A stretch of 64,000 nt of DNA. Origin: Planctomycetia bacterium (lineage in GTDB: Bacteria > Planctomycetota > Phycisphaerae > UBA1845 > UTPLA1). The stretch covers positions 510,453-574,452 of the forward strand of contig JABTTW010000002.1 in NCBI GenBank assembly GCA_015075745.1. The letters are read 5' to 3'. A program made the position numbers and the translations under genes. Shown piece by piece: positions 49,758 to 62,306 of this stretch; within the stretch, counting starts at the first letter, position 1, and every line of letters begins with the position of its first letter. Below the pieces are notes generated by a model. It saw only the letters and a program-made list of their open reading frames with translations, searched no databases and was not told the origin of the DNA.

Positions 49758-49761
49758 TTAG

Positions 49762-51352
49762 CCCGCATATTTCATCAGTGATCTTCGAATGGTGATGGAC
49801 GGAGTTTTTCGGCTTTGTGCGTGAGCGGAGGGATGAAGGTGGAGGTTGGAGCGCGCAGGGCCCCCTTACCCCCAAGCGGTGATCAGGTTGTTTTTCGGGT
49901 CATGATGGGGCGGGCGGGATCAGGCGGAGTCGTGGAACCAGGGATCGCCACAGGTCCTGCAGGGGGCAGCTGCTCGACAGTCGCAGTACGACGCGGCGCA
50001 CGGAGACGACCACCCGCGCGGCGACCTTGAAGAGTTTCAGGCGAATGGTGTTCACCTGGGCCTCGGCCAGTTCGGTGCCGGCCAGGGCCGTGCGGCGCAG
50101 CGTTTCCACCAGGACGTAGGCCGCCGAGGACAACAGCAGCCGGAACTGATTGGCCAGGAAGGCGTGGCAACTGGTGCGATCGGCGAAGAGCCCGAGCTGC
50201 TGCTCCTTGATGCGGTTCTCCATGTCGCCGCGGGCCGTGTACAGACCGTCGTAGATATCGTTCGGCGTGCGGTCGGTCAGGTTGGTCACCACGAATCGAA
50301 CGTTGGGCCCCTGAACCAGCCGCTCGGCCTTGACGATCACGCGGCGCGGGCGATCCCAGGTCTGCGCCGCGTACTCGATCTCGTGGAAGTTCCGCACCTT
50401 CTGCTGCGTGGTGGCGAACTGGGCCTCGGCCGCCTGCATGAAGGACTCGGCCGCTTTCTCCAGGACGGTGTTGCGGGCCAGGCCCAGCACGTACTTGACG
50501 CCGTGCCGGTCGCACCATTTCATCATTCGCCGGCGGCAGAAGCCGGAATCCCCGCGGACGATGATCCGCACCCCGGGCCACGCCTGTCGCAAGCGCTGCA
50601 CCAGCAGCTTCAGGATGGGCCAGGCGTGATGGGCCCCGTCGATGTTGCTGGGCCGCAGGTAGGAGACCAGCAGCCGCGAGCCGCAGAACACATACAGCGG
50701 TAGGAAGCAGTGGTGGTCGTAATAGCCGTGGAAGAAGCGGCCTTCCTGGTTGCCGTGGATCGGATCGTCGGTCGCGTCGAAGTCGAGGATCAATTCCTCC
50801 GGCGGCGATTCATAGGACGCGATGAACTGCTCCACCAGCACACGCGACATTCGTGCCAGGTCGCCGCGCGTGACGCGGTTCTCCAGCCGGCACAAGGTCG
50901 GACTGCTGGCCAGCGGCTCATCCGCGCTCGGCGGCCGCCCGGTCAGGACCGCCAGCACGGGATCGCTCCGCAGGGCTTGATGGTCGTTGAGATCTTCGTA
51001 GCCCATCGCAATGGCAAAGATGCGCTGGGCCAGCATGACCCGCTGGTCATGTTGAATTCGGGCCGGATCACGCGGGTCGTTGATGACCCCGGCCAGTTGA
51101 TCGACCAGGCCCAGACGCCGCTCGACCTCCCGAAGCAGCAGACCCCCGGCGTCTGAGGTGAGCGTTCCGCCTGTGAAATCGGCCACGATTTTCTTGCGGC
51201 CGAGACTGGAAAAGAACATCGGTTTGCTGTTACAGTCTGTCACGAAAAAGCCTCCCTGCCTATGGACCGGAATGTTCTTACGAAACCCCAGTCTACAGGG
51301 CTTCGAGGCTTTTTCTATTCCTATTCAACGCCGACCTGATGAAATATTCGGG
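49762..51352 (-). mobile_element. IS1380-family insertion sequence, copy 2
   Basis: This 1591-bp element has the same ends as copy 1. The target duplication is TTAG at 49758-49761 and 51353-51356. On the minus strand this is CTAA, the last base of the final Pro codon plus the TAA stop of the NusG-paralogue gene, so the gene still ends correctly. Sequence and length match copy 1. The element now separates the antiterminator gene from the ugd operon leader. Confidence 0.93.
49900..51243 (-). CDS. IS1380-family DDE transposase (copy 2)
   Basis: A 447-residue transposase identical in sequence to the copy 1 protein, with the same acidic catalytic regions, GTG start, GGAGG seven bases upstream and leader inverted repeat (51245-51254 and 51305-51314). 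The frame is intact. Confidence 0.92.
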   Translation of the reverse strand: MTDCNSKPMFFSSLGRKKIVADFTGGTLTSDAGGLLLREVERRLGLVDQLAGVINDPRDPARIQHDQRVMLAQRIFAIAMGYEDLNDHQALRSDPVLAVLTGRPPSADEPLASSPTLCRLENRVTRGDLARMSRVLVEQFIASYESPPEELILDFDATDDPIHGNQEGRFFHGYYDHHCFLPLYVFCGSRLLVSYLRPSNIDGAHHAWPILKLLVQRLRQAWPGVRIIVRGDSGFCRRRMMKWCDRHGVKYVLGLARNTVLEKAAESFMQAAEAQFATTQQKVRNFHEIEYAAQTWDRPRRVIVKAERLVQGPNVRFVVTNLTDRTPNDIYDGLYTARGDMENRIKEQQLGLFADRTSCHAFLANQFRLLLSSAAYVLVETLRRTALAGTELAEAQVNTIRLKLFKVAARVVVSVRRVVLRLSSSCPLQDLWRSLVPRLRLIPPAPS

Positions 51353-51898
51353 TTAGGGCGCGTTCATTCTTTCCAGTACGTCGTCCGATACCTCTACGCT
51401 CACGGATTGGCCCAGCATCACCACATTGAGCACCAGGCGTACGCGTACGCGTCCGCTTCGCTGGAGGACAATCCCCTCAACCCCCATCAGCGGCCCCGAC
51501 GTCACGCGCGCCCAATCCCCCACCTTGATCTCGGGATGCCAGCGAAGTCCGACGCCGGTCGAGATCGCTTTGTAAATCTCCCGAAGCTCGCGCACCAGCG
51601 ACTCCTGCCGAGGCACATCGATCACCGTCACGATGCGGTTCGTCTTCAGCGCTCGCAGCCGCTCCTCCTCCGTCGCATTGAAAAACAGGTAACCGGGAAA
51701 AATAGGGACGACGCTCTTGTAAACACGTCGCGAAATGCGGCCTCGCGTCTGTCGCGGCTGAAGCGGCAGAAAGTGAACGATGCCCGACTGCACAAGCTCC
51801 CCGGCCAGCGACTTCTCATTACGCGGCTTGGTGTGCGCGACCCACCAGCGCCCCGCGAGACCATCGGGAATCGCTTCCTCTGCCGGCAACATGATCAT
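51353..51898 (-). CDS. NusG-paralogue transcription antiterminator (UpxY/LoaP/RfaH type)
   Basis: A 181-residue protein. The NGN domain begins RWWVAHTKPRNEKSLAGELV, the pattern of specialised NusG paralogues, with FPGYLFFNA in the core. The C-terminal KOW domain contains VKVGDWARVTSGPLMGVEGIVLQR. It differs from general NusG by lacking the long acidic N-terminus. Such proteins bind RNA polymerase and prevent termination in long capsule and polysaccharide operons. I choose ATG 51898, 11 bases after fcl; the frame upstream (to 52063) lies in fcl. Its stop is inside the target duplication of IS copy 2. Confidence 0.82.
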   Translation of the reverse strand: MIMLPAEEAIPDGLAGRWWVAHTKPRNEKSLAGELVQSGIVHFLPLQPRQTRGRISRRVYKSVVPIFPGYLFFNATEEERLRALKTNRIVTVIDVPRQESLVRELREIYKAISTGVGLRWHPEIKVGDWARVTSGPLMGVEGIVLQRSGRVRVRLVLNVVMLGQSVSVEVSDDVLERMNAP

Positions 51899-57992: not shown

Positions 57993-58257
57993 GCGCTACG
58001 GATCGGGGTGCGGGGGTGGTTTGTTTGTGGCGAGCGCGGACGAGGTCGTGGGGAGTGGGTTGGTTGTCCGTCGCCAAACGGCAAGCCGCGGTGGGGGTCG
58101 CGCGGTGATCGGATCGGAGCGAGGATAGGGCTACAGGGAATGATCGCGGGGCGGCGGCCGAGGTCGGCGGGCAAATGCGGGGGCGATAGGCCGAACGGGG
58201 ATGATTCGGTTACGGCCCAATGGGGGCGGACAATGATGCGTCGCGGGCCCCTGTTAG

Positions 58258-59849
58258 CCCGCATATTTCATCAGTGATCTTCGAATGGTGATGGACGGAG
58301 TTTTTCGGCTTTGTGCGTGAGCGGAGGGATGAAGGTGGAGGTTGGAGCGCGCAGGGCCCCCTTACCCCCAAGCGGTGATCAGGTTGTTTTTCGGGTCATG
58401 ATGGGGCGGGCGGGATCAGGCGGAGTCGTGGAACCAGGGATCGCCACAGGTCCTGCAGGGGGCAGCTGCTCGACAGTCGCAGTACGACGCGGCGCACGGA
58501 GACGACCACCCGCGCGGCGACCTTGAAGAGTTTCAGGCGAATGGTGTTCACCTGGGCCTCGGCCAGTTCGGTGCCGGCCAGGGCCGTGCGGCGCAGCGTT
58601 TCCACCAGGACGTAGGCCGCCGAGGACAACAGCAGCCGGAACTGATTGGCCAGGAAGGCGTGGCAACTGGTGCGATCGGCGAAGAGCCCGAGCTGCTGCT
58701 CCTTGATGCGGTTCTCCATGTCGCCGCGGGCCGTGTACAGACCGTCGTAGATATCGTTCGGCGTGCGGTCGGTCAGGTTGGTCACCACGAATCGAACGTT
58801 GGGCCCCTGAACCAGCCGCTCGGCCTTGACGATCACGCGCGCGGGCGATCCCAGGTCTGCGCCGCGTACTCGATCTCGTGGAAGTTCCGCACCTTCTGCT
58901 GCGTGGTGGCGAACTGGGCCTCGGCCGCCTGCATGAAGGACTCGGCCGCTTTCTCCAGGACGGTGTTGCGGGCCAGGCCCAGCACGTACTTGACGCCGTG
59001 CCGGTCGCACCATTTCATCATTCGCCGGCGGCAGAAGCCGGAATCCCGCGGACGATGATCCGCACCCCAGGCCACGCCTGTCGCAAAGCCGCTGCACCAG
59101 CAGCTTCAGGATGGGCCAGGCGTGATGGGCCCCGTCGATGTTGCTGGGCCGCAGGTAGGAGACCAGCAGCCGCGAGCCGCAGAACACATACAGCGGTAGG
59201 AAGCAGTGGTGGTCGTAATAGCCGTGGAAGAAGCGGCCTTCCTGGTTGCCGTGGATCGGATCGTCGGTCGCGTCGAAGTCGAGGATCAATTCCTCCGGCG
59301 GCGATTCATAGGACGCGATGAACTGCTCCACCAGCACACGCGACATTCGTGCCAGGTCGCCGCGCGTGACGCGGTTCTCCAGCCGGCACAAGGTCGGACT
59401 GCTGGCCAGCGGCTCATCCGCGCTCGGCGGCCGCCCGGTCAGGACCGCCAGCACGGGATCGCTCCGCAGGGCTTGATGGTCGTTGAGATCTTCGTAGCCC
59501 ATCGCAATGGCAAAGATGCGCTGGGCCAGCATGACCCGCTGGTCATGTTGAATTCTGGGCCGGATCACGCGGGTCGTTGATGACCCCGGCCAGTTGATCG
59601 ACCAGGCCCAGACGCCGCTCGACCTCCCGAAGCAGCAGACCCCCGGCGTCTGAGGTGAGCGTTCCGCCTGTGAAATCGGCCACGATTTTCTTGCGGCCGA
59701 GACTGGAAAAGAACATCGGTTTGCTGTTACAGTCTGTCACGAAAAAGCCTCCCTGCCTATGGACCGGAATGTTCTTACGAAACCCCAGTCTACAGGGCTT
59801 CGAGGCTTTTTCTATTCCTATTCAACGCCGACCTGATGAAATATTCGGG
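58258..59849 (-). mobile_element. IS1380-family insertion sequence, copy 3 (decayed)
   Basis: A 1592-bp copy with intact terminal repeats and target duplication TTAG (58254-58257 and 59850-59853). Compared with copies 1 and 2 it has four small indels in the transposase: one base lost near 58840, one lost near 59047, two gained near 59086 and one gained near 59557. It also has a G-to-A change near 59070. The leader inverted repeat is unchanged. Confidence 0.9.
58396..59740 (-). pseudogene. IS1380 transposase, frameshifted (copy 3)
   Basis: The GTG start and first 60 or so codons are normal, then a +1 near 59557 shifts the frame. The remaining frame resumes as a 390-codon ORF with a further shifted stretch between about 59090 and 58840, where the second catalytic Asp region sits. 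No active protein can be made. Sequencing or assembly errors cannot be excluded for a repeated element. Confidence 0.85.
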
Positions 59850-59916
59850 TTAGCCGTGGTGATAGGCGAATTCATCAATAGATGCGGCCGGGGCCTGAGC
59901 GGGATATGATTCCCCC

Positions 59917-60714
59917 ATGGCTCAAAACACACCCCCACAAAGCGTAGCAGCGGATCCGAAGCCCGCCGGCGGATTTCCGTGGTTGCTGGCGGTCGGTGGC
60001 ATCGTTGTCTCGCTTGCCGGGCCGGTTGTTTACACCGCGCTGATGGGCGTGCCGTGGATTCGCTCGACGGGATTGCCGGCGTTCGCGTTGATTTTTCTCG
60101 GCATTGCTCTCTCGTTGACGGCGGTCGCGAAACGACCACGACTTTCCACCAAGATCATGGCGGGTCTGAACACGGCGTTTCTGGCGCTCTTCGGGTTCGG
60201 GTTTTTCGTCATGGCGGCAGTCCCGGAGTCTCCGAAGTTCGAAGGACTCAAGACCGCGCCGGACTTCACGCTGAAGGATGAAAACAACAACGCCGTCTCG
60301 CTGGCCGACGCGCGGGCGCGTGGGCCGGTGCTGCTGGTATTCTATCGCGGCTTCTGGTGACCGGTTTGCATCTCGGAGCTCGTTGGGCTCCATCCGGTAG
60401 TTGATGAACTGAAGGAGTTGGGCGGCCGAGTTCTGGCGATCAGCGTGGACCCACCCAAGGACTCGCTCGGTGTCGTCAAGAAGGCGAAGCTGGAGTTTCC
60501 CATTCTGTCTGACGAGACGCGCGAAACACTCGAGGCCTATGGGCTGGTCCATGCGGGCATGGGGCCAGGCAAATCGGACATCGCCATGCCGGCGATGGTC
60601 CTCGTCGGTCAGGACGGCAGCATCCTTTGGCGTCGCAAAAGCGTTCGCGTTCAGGATCGGCCGGCGCCGGAGGAAGTCCTCGAGGCGGTTCGCGCGGCGG
60701 TCGGAAAGCCGTAG
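59917..60714 (+). CDS. Membrane-anchored peroxiredoxin-like protein, probable selenoprotein (UGA = Sec148)
   Basis: The frame runs through TGA at 60358 without a shift and gives 265 residues. Three membrane helices (about 20-42, 53-71 and 81-101) are followed by an AhpC/TSA thioredoxin-fold domain: APDFTLKDENNNAVSLADARA, then LLVFYRGFW-U-PVCISEL, where the peroxidatic Cys of the family is replaced by the TGA (residue 148), with Cys151 three residues later (U-x-x-C). Downstream, VLAISVDPPKDS, ILSDETRETLEAYGL and AMVLVGQDGSILWRR are normal for the family. Positive charges between helices 2 and 3 (AKRPRLSTK) put the redox domain outside the cytoplasm. A SECIS-like hairpin follows the TGA. It starts 68 bases from IS copy 3. 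Alternatives are a stop mutation or a sequencing error in a TGC or TGT codon. Confidence 0.75.
60358..60398 (+). promoter_or_regulatory. SECIS-like element after the in-frame TGA
   Basis: A 5-bp apical stem GGAGC (60375-60379) and GCTCC (60387-60391) closes a 7-base loop (TCGTTGG), with its first G 22 bases after the TGA. An outer stem ACCGG (60360-60364) pairs with CCGGT (60394-60398), starting at the last base of the TGA. Bacterial SECIS elements lie just 3' of the Sec codon and have a G/U in the apical loop, which SelB recognises. The fold is drawn by eye; the energy was not computed. Confidence 0.55.
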
Positions 60715-60779: not shown

Positions 60780-62306
60780 ATGAATCGCCATCAATTCCAC
60801 TTTGTCAGAACCCGAGTGTTTCGCGCCCTTTCCGCGACGCTGATTTTCCTGGCGGTGTGGTCGCCGGCGCTTGGTTTCGACGGCAAGCCGACGCCGATCA
60901 TGGACTTGGTACCGTCGGATGCCTTGGTGGTGTATGCCGCCAAGCCGTACTCGTTTCTGATGGGTGAGAGTCCGACTCAGTCCGACGGCGAGACGAAGGG
61001 GCCGACGGTCTCGCTCACGTCGATCGTGGGGTTCTTGAACGCCGCGGGGCTCATTCCCGGCGACGGCCAGGTCTATGCGGACATCATTTCCGCCCTGCCG
61101 CTATTGGGTCGATACGAGCACGCGCTGGCACTGTTGGACGTGTCCACCAAGCTGGTCCAGCCGGCCGGCGACGACGATCAAACGGGCACGCAGAAGAAGA
61201 TTCTCCGGCTCGATCGGCTTCAGGTCGCGGTTGTCTTCCGCACAGGGGAGAACTGCAAACCGGTGACCGATCAGCTTTATCGCGTCATGAGCCGTTACAC
61301 CAACCGGGATGTGGCGGCGCTGTCGACCCACAAGACGGGCGACTATGAATATCAGCGGTTGGTGGACGAGCGGCTCAAGGAATGGGCCGTCTGGGAATGG
61401 GGCACAATCGGCGACTGCTTTGTGCTGACGTTTGGCGAGGGCGCTTACGACCGGCTGGTGTCGGTGGCGAGCGGCAAGACGACGTCGATGTCTCGGAACG
61501 ACTGGTATCGCAGGGGCGCCGAGCAGACGCACGTAGGCGACTGTTTCGCGCACTGGGTGACCGATTTCACGCAGCTTCGCGAGCGCCTGGGCGAGGCGGC
61601 CGAGGGCCGGGTGGCGCGTGTGGCGGCGGCGCTTCAGGCTGACGACATTCGGCAGGACATGTGGGCGGTGGGCATCGAAGGTCGGGCGCTGACCTGGCGT
61701 CGATATTATCGTCGCGGAAGTGAGGACGTGACGCGGCTGTACAGCGATCCGTCGCTCTATTCAAAGGAGCATCTGCGAATTGTCCCTGACGAGGCCCGGC
61801 ACTTTGCGATCATCAAGGTGCCGACGCGGTGGCTGGTGGACAATCTTCCGCGGGCCTGGGTCGCGGCGCAGTCGGAGAGCAACTATCGAAAGTGGAAGAC
61901 CGCATGGCAGCGCCTCGAACAGGAGCGAGGCCTCGACATCGGCGGAAACCTGATCGAACACATCGGCGAGACGGTGATATTGTTCGACTACCCCGAGCAT
62001 CCCCTGCGCATCCCCTTCGCGCTGACGATCGCCATTGAGATCGATAACGGTCGCGCCGTCTCCGCGGCGATCAATTCGCTGCTCGAGGCCTGGAGCCGAT
62101 ACCTCGATGAGCGCGCCGAACGCAATAAGACGGTGCTGGCTCGGGTGAGCGTCAAGCGCGACGACGAGGGCATCTGGTACCTTCAGGCGGCCATTCCCGG
62201 CCCGGCCTTGAAAGTCACCGACCGATACATGGTGATCAGTTGGTCGCCACAGGCACTGCGCGACGCGCTGCGGTTTATCGAACCCGAAAAGAAGGCCCGC
62301 CGGTAA
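60780..62306 (+). CDS. Secreted planctomycete hypothetical protein
   Basis: A 508-residue protein I do not recognise. A signal peptide is visible (RALSATLIFLAVWSPALGFDG). The rest is globular mixed alpha/beta, with MDLVPSDALVVYAAKPYSFLM, HALALLDVSTKL, and a C-terminal half containing DIGGNLIEHIGETVILFDYPEHP and WSPQALRDALRF. The repeated patterns 'LVPSDALVVYAAKP' and 'ETVILFDYP' resemble large DUF3352-like surface proteins that bear no known enzyme site. I start at ATG 60780, where the signal peptide begins; the frame continues upstream in the Prx gene. Confidence 0.7.
   Translation: MNRHQFHFVRTRVFRALSATLIFLAVWSPALGFDGKPTPIMDLVPSDALVVYAAKPYSFLMGESPTQSDGETKGPTVSLTSIVGFLNAAGLIPGDGQVYADIISALPLLGRYEHALALLDVSTKLVQPAGDDDQTGTQKKILRLDRLQVAVVFRTGENCKPVTDQLYRVMSRYTNRDVAALSTHKTGDYEYQRLVDERLKEWAVWEWGTIGDCFVLTFGEGAYDRLVSVASGKTTSMSRNDWYRRGAEQTHVGDCFAHWVTDFTQLRERLGEAAEGRVARVAAALQADDIRQDMWAVGIEGRALTWRRYYRRGSEDVTRLYSDPSLYSKEHLRIVPDEARHFAIIKVPTRWLVDNLPRAWVAAQSESNYRKWKTAWQRLEQERGLDIGGNLIEHIGETVILFDYPEHPLRIPFALTIAIEIDNGRAVSAAINSLLEAWSRYLDERAERNKTVLARVSVKRDDEGIWYLQAAIPGPALKVTDRYMVISWSPQALRDALRFIEPEKKARR

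Follow-up and report, generated by a model that had tools for sequence, protein, structure and literature searches.

The locus

The 64,000-nucleotide stretch of planctomycete DNA analysed here (the window) contains a single frame on the forward strand, from 59917 to 60714, which comprises 265 codons when TGA is translated and holds one TGA, at codon 148 (Table 1). Re-translation thus confirmed the frame that an earlier note on this DNA had described. A standard gene finder cuts the region in two at the TGA, as that note had expected. The match to PF00578 nevertheless spans the TGA (residues 112-237, E 1.5e-27, 96.5 bits) and the part before it reaches by itself only 23 bits, below the cut-off, in keeping with the note's claim that Prx/AhpC homology continues without a shift on both sides. 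By itself the open stretch of 117 codons says little, because the window is GC-rich and 12% of random stretches of this length are open in it; as open frames are this cheap, the case was built on comparison with relatives.

Table 1. Features of the candidate selenoprotein locus and its surroundings (positions in the window).
Feature	Position	Strand	Remarks
Complete gene of the predicted selenoprotein	59917-60714	+	265 residues including Sec148; final stop TAG
Three predicted transmembrane helices, about residues 17-35, 53-71 and 84-102	59965-60222	+	N-in/C-out by the positive-inside rule
Peroxiredoxin-fold (AhpC/TSA) redox domain, residues 112-265	60250-60711	+	PF00578 match, predicted model, fold comparison
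TGA codon 148, predicted to be read as selenocysteine, motif FYRGFW-U-PVC	60358-60360	+	TGA in 30/30 aligned full-length relatives
Cys151, invariant partner of Sec148 (UxxC)	60367-60369	+	At the place of the peroxidatic Cys in alignments with classical peroxiredoxins
Putative SECIS hairpin: stem GGAGCUC (60375-60381), loop GUU (60382-60384), stem GGGCUCC (60385-60391)	60375-60391	+	Comparison with relatives
Insertion sequence of 1.6 kb, right-hand copy	58254-59853		99.6% identical to 49758-51356; context, not part of the gene

Between the right-hand insertion sequence copy and the start codon lie 63 bp, and the promoter of the gene may have been replaced by the element. This copy is disrupted, and the one at 49758-51356 retains an intact transposase frame of 447 amino acids. 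Downstream, at 60780-62306, a protein of 508 amino acids without a Pfam match is encoded; conservation of it and of the gene that follows it is confined to the three nearest relatives. Across the relatives no partner gene is conserved beyond the genus or the closest relatives, and proposals on substrate and electron donor are for this reason guesses.

Conservation among relatives

Strong matches (E < 1e-38) were found in 33 genomes including the source genome, with 100 relatives searched, and each of them carries one in-frame TGA. In an alignment of 30 full-length relatives from the same order the TGA column holds TGA without exception, and the frame runs on for 113-121 codons past it. The residues F142, Y143, R144, G145, W147, residue 148, C151, E154 and L155 are invariant, giving a family motif FYRGxW-U-x-x-C in which U-x-x-C does not vary. 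Among close pairs dN/dS amounts to 0.23-0.46 before the TGA and to 0.11-0.22 after it, which indicates that the part after the TGA is selected as protein. Homologues had also been proposed for comparison at position 148, and beside the uniform TGA of the aligned relatives this revealed Cys at the same column in some other relatives. Across the phylum, for which 392 genomes were surveyed, TGA is present in about 37 full-length matches (membrane part included) and absent from three, a count for which only the fetched matches were inspected at the site itself. A scan of genome contigs returned only Cys relatives (Bacteroidota, Verrucomicrobiota).

A number of other proteins of this kind came to light. 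In five soluble peroxiredoxin-like relatives of the same class (L105, L106, L110, L112 and L115) a TGA occupies the same position (WURYC, WUPYC); L112 has two TGA codons, which give WURYU and with it the UxxU arrangement of SelL. One genome encodes, next to a normal Sec copy, a paralogue with FYRTGRDPSC and thus Asp for Sec (L107, G047:C1:2075190-2075615), possibly a decayed or non-redox duplicate. In the source genome, an N-terminal region which we take to be DUF3179-like is fused to a Cys-containing peroxiredoxin-like domain with FYRGGWCPIC (L014, G000:C1:2941583-2942113).

Redox domain and active site

The redox domain is modelled with good confidence, pLDDT values over residues 111-210 being mostly 85-96, and its fold is that of a PrxQ/AhpE-type peroxiredoxin (TM-score, normalised by target length, about 0.85), followed by the ResA type (about 0.80). 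The best sequence matches are likewise PrxQ/AhpE peroxiredoxins. Fold and matches would suit a classical selenoperoxidase, in which Sec takes the place of the peroxidatic Cys as the earlier note had assumed. However, alignment to solved peroxiredoxins, by single sequence as well as by profile, pairs Sec148 with the Thr/Ser of PxxxT/SxxC, and it is Cys151 that coincides with the peroxidatic Cys. The classical motif is absent: YRGxWUxxC has Sec at the T/S place, and Cys151 stands at the peroxidatic place without the Pro and the Thr/Ser. Moreover, the Sec peroxiredoxins treated in the relevant passages of PMC1088965 and PMC13188914 are TxxU and not UxxC. The assumption about the peroxidatic Cys was therefore mistaken; the related statement that the family has Cys exactly here holds in so far as relatives do have Cys at this column, but by alignment the column is not the peroxidatic one. 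We consider a classical selenoperoxidase unlikely, and peroxide reduction, which a Sec at the first position might perform as in glutathione peroxidases, is only one possible activity, given that Sec148 does not occupy the peroxidatic place. With Sec148 on the Thr/Ser and Cys151 on the peroxidatic Cys, the site is rather of the thioredoxin/TlpA type, with a UxxC pair, and the protein looks, from its sequence, like a thioredoxin-type selenol oxidoreductase on a peroxiredoxin fold.

Predicted membrane anchor

The model places the helices at residues 21-43, 46-71 and 77-96, with low model confidence there. Three hydrophobic segments are found in 28 of the 30 relatives and two segments in the remaining two. 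Lys and Arg cluster in the N-tail and in the second loop, from which the redox domain is predicted to lie outside the cytoplasm; both the helix count in relatives and this charge distribution agree with the topology that the earlier note had put forward.

Since a product ending at the TGA would be a complete membrane segment, one might envisage the UGA as a regulated fork, at which low selenium yields a three-helix protein of 147 residues with a purpose of its own and selenium the full enzyme. The N-terminal part is, however, more variable than the domain, and a function of the short form gained no support from any test here, so that we regard such a fork as improbable.

A hairpin downstream of the TGA

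The stem-loop of the window begins 14 nt past the UGA, with 21 nt between the UGA and the loop GUU, and the 45 nt after the UGA fold with -13.9 kcal/mol. Bacterial SECIS elements are described as having a loop of 3-9 nt with G in the first two positions, 16-37 nt after the UGA (PMC13188914), to which the GUU loop at 21 nt conforms. Folding energy alone was rejected as proof of a SECIS, as neither dinucleotide shuffles (z -0.62) nor synonymous shuffles (p 0.20) single out the window's own hairpin; because it folds no better than these, the case for a SECIS rests on comparison.

Codons +7 to +11 past the TGA show a synonymous lock that sets them apart from the rest of the genes, other nearby columns deviating much less. 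CTC is used at codon +7 in 26 of 30 sequences (expected 6.6) and at codon +10 in 28 of 29 (expected 6.4), GGA at codon +11 in 19 of 21 (expected 2.6), and GGC never at codon +9, where 14.4 of 29 would be expected. These locked codons form the hairpin, which in most relatives reads CUCCGA-GGUC-UCGGAG; in many relatives the apex loop AGGUCU matches E. coli fdhF exactly. A shift by one codon sets apart the form seen in the window and its nearest relatives (GGAGCUC-GUU-GGGCUCC), and three registers become distinguishable once distant relatives are added. In these three registers stem pairs are retained in 97%, 93% and 100% of cells, respectively, and compensatory changes, with both partners altered, occur in 10, 8 and 8 cells. 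Because predicted folds served to sort the sequences into registers, the pairing percentages are flattered, the compensatory changes less so. The covariation score was reached by 0 of 500 shuffles in each register, and sliding the partner by 1-3 columns lets pairing fall to 23-63%. Four distant relatives with TGA (L145, L150, L162 and L177) have no clean hairpin in the minimum-energy fold, and an Rfam scan of the region gave no match to a SECIS family, bacterial SECIS being poorly covered in Rfam.

Selenocysteine machinery and possible replacement by cysteine

A search for selA, selB, selC and selD, which the earlier note had suggested, was successful in the source genome (5.0 Mb in four contigs): selA (533 bits), selB (296 bits), selD (356 bits) and a tRNA-Sec (69 bits, anticodon TCA) are all present, the latter being the only tRNA with a TCA anticodon examined. 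Together with the uniform TGA of the relatives, this supports the note's central proposal of an in-frame Sec codon in a peroxiredoxin-fold redox domain. The 16S gene of this genome comes closest to the planctomycete probes EUB338-II and PLA886, but with two mismatches to each, so that Planctomycetota is a likely phylum. The selD gene (L010, G000:C2:592115-593038) forms its own frame with an in-frame TGA and thus probably encodes a selenoprotein itself. A TlpA-like secreted protein with the motif WAVG-U-PPC (L015, G000:C1:1909240-1909728, minus strand) is a probable second selenoprotein of this genome. Within the order, co-occurrence of selA with the gene is not discriminating, because most of the order has selA: it is present in 32 of 33 orthologue genomes versus 89 of 101 in the order background, hardly a difference.

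A useful contrast in selA and selB came instead from a distant family, f74, with members in the genomes G541, G687, G512, G665 and G461, of which G512 and G541 belong to the same genus. The members in G512, G665 and G461 have TGA at the site and the hairpin CUCCGAGGUCUCGGAG, and their genomes contain both selA and selB. Those in G541 and G687 have TGC at the Sec site and no such hairpin; in their genomes we found no selA, and for selB an EF-Tu-level match at best or none, an absence which is weaker for G687 owing to its completeness of 79% (91% for G541). The third match without TGA, from G457, has Cys in spite of selA and selB being present in that genome. In a phylogenetic tree, the Cys forms of G541 and G687 each adjoin a Sec form (support 97 and 80) and lie within a clade of membrane-anchored proteins in which nearly all other members have Sec (counts are approximate here, a few sites, L015 and L173, having been called by a loose pattern), while Cys relatives without membrane helices group elsewhere. 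Because the Cys forms adjoin Sec forms in such a clade, the tree fits Sec as the older state, replaced by Cys upon loss of the machinery.

These comparisons also bear on whether the TGA is a true stop with a dead part behind it, through decay or sequencing error. The split made by the gene finder and the insertion sequence just upstream would agree with a pseudogene, but intact frames with TGA throughout the aligned relatives, the low dN/dS after it, the constrained hairpin and the appearance of Cys exactly where the Sec machinery was lost all disfavour it, as the earlier note had anticipated in arguing that a pseudogene would not break at this very codon; for the family conservation already refutes the reading, and for the gene itself we hold it to be very improbable. 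A suppressor tRNA, or general recoding, that supplies Trp, Cys or Gly at the UGA would leave the frame open too, but is least probable of all, since about a third of the orthologues themselves terminate in TGA and UGA is thus no general sense codon, the genome has a canonical tRNA-Sec, and a hairpin lost in Cys forms points to SelB-dependent insertion.

Although the gene looks broken by a stop, its UGA is hence almost certainly read through with selenocysteine at the active site, judging from the comparative evidence. Very probably, 59917-60714 is an active selenoprotein gene whose UGA is read by SelB and Sec-tRNA(Sec) via the hairpin, giving a membrane-held UxxC product.

Proposed function

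The reading that we favour, inferred from fold and motif, is an oxidoreductase of thiols/disulfides or of peroxides that acts through a selenol, Sec148 being the nucleophile and Cys151 its resolving partner. SelB with Sec-tRNA(Sec) would decode UGA codon 148 under direction of the downstream stem-loop, as comparative genomics suggests, and the product would be held in the cytoplasmic membrane by its three helices, the C-terminal peroxiredoxin-fold domain being predicted on the periplasmic side. At the putative active site, Sec148-x-x-Cys151, the selenolate of Sec148 might attack an oxidised substrate, either a (hydro)peroxide or a disulfide in a protein or small molecule; Cys151 could then resolve the intermediate as a selenenylsulfide, which some membrane or periplasmic thiol donor may re-reduce. 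The family would thereby tie selenium use to the membrane exterior, where oxidants and disulfide chemistry are met.

Comparison with known families

Peroxiredoxin-like UxxC selenoproteins are an established predicted class, as far as the relevant passages of PMC1088965, PMC2398784 and PMC13188914 go, and only the membrane-anchored subfamily would therefore be new. The consulted part of PMC1088965 separates Sec peroxiredoxins (TxxU) from peroxiredoxin-like selenoproteins, which are UxxC and called "thioredoxin-like", and that of PMC13188914 counts more than 110 prokaryotic selenoprotein families, including Prx-like UxxC (PF00578), cd02970 UxxS and redoxin UxxC. By domain and motif, i.e., PF00578 with UxxC, the window protein belongs to the Prx-like UxxC class (listed representative WP_010940744.1). 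Like the members known from the Sargasso Sea and GOS it combines this domain with UxxC instead of TxxU, and it differs from them by three N-terminal membrane helices and FYRGxWUxxC; the passages searched in PMC1088965 and PMC2398784 make no mention of membrane forms. A paper on Porphyra planctomycetes lists selenoproteins in its supplement (PMC4807772). Within the partially covered literature that we searched, no description was found of a three-helix membrane-anchored form or of a planctomycete naming of the family.

The membrane-anchored, almost always Sec-containing subfamily thus looks undescribed. Gene finders will show such a gene as a pseudogene or as two fragments, and annotation throughout the phylum has therefore probably overlooked an envelope redox enzyme that is widely conserved. 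We lean, by a modest degree, towards the broader view that this is an undescribed family of membrane-tethered, outward-facing selenoproteins with a peroxiredoxin fold, found widely in a single phylum; Sec would be their ancestral and normal state, and Cys only a secondary one that follows loss of the machinery. If true, it would offer a compact system for following Sec-to-Cys replacement and the loss of the SECIS hairpin, and the within-genus pair G512/G541 a testable case of how a Sec enzyme, along with its chemistry and hairpin, fares after the Sec machinery is lost.

No NCBIfam model accepts the window protein above its cut-off. Its best match there by score, the SelL-related redox protein NF040769, reaches 56 bits against a curated cut-off of 120; SelL shares the peroxiredoxin-like fold and has UxxU, whereas the window protein has one Sec in UxxC. 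The Sec peroxiredoxin PrxU has the same fold and a Sec too, but is TxxU and soluble, and its model NF040737 gives 28 bits against a cut-off of 270. With the Cys-containing FYRGGWCPYC peroxiredoxin-like family, to which the cd02970 UxxS selenoprotein presumably belongs, the protein shares the FYRG-W-C core, with Cys at the Sec position, and the fold; that family is mostly soluble or secreted and forms a separate branch of the tree. The membrane-anchored thiol-disulfide oxidoreductases ResA and TlpA are likewise tethered and outward-facing, and the fold carries their redox pair in the same position. A single anchor is usual for ResA, and the window protein is distinguished from both by its fold, which is closer to PrxQ/AhpE, by its three helices and by its Sec.
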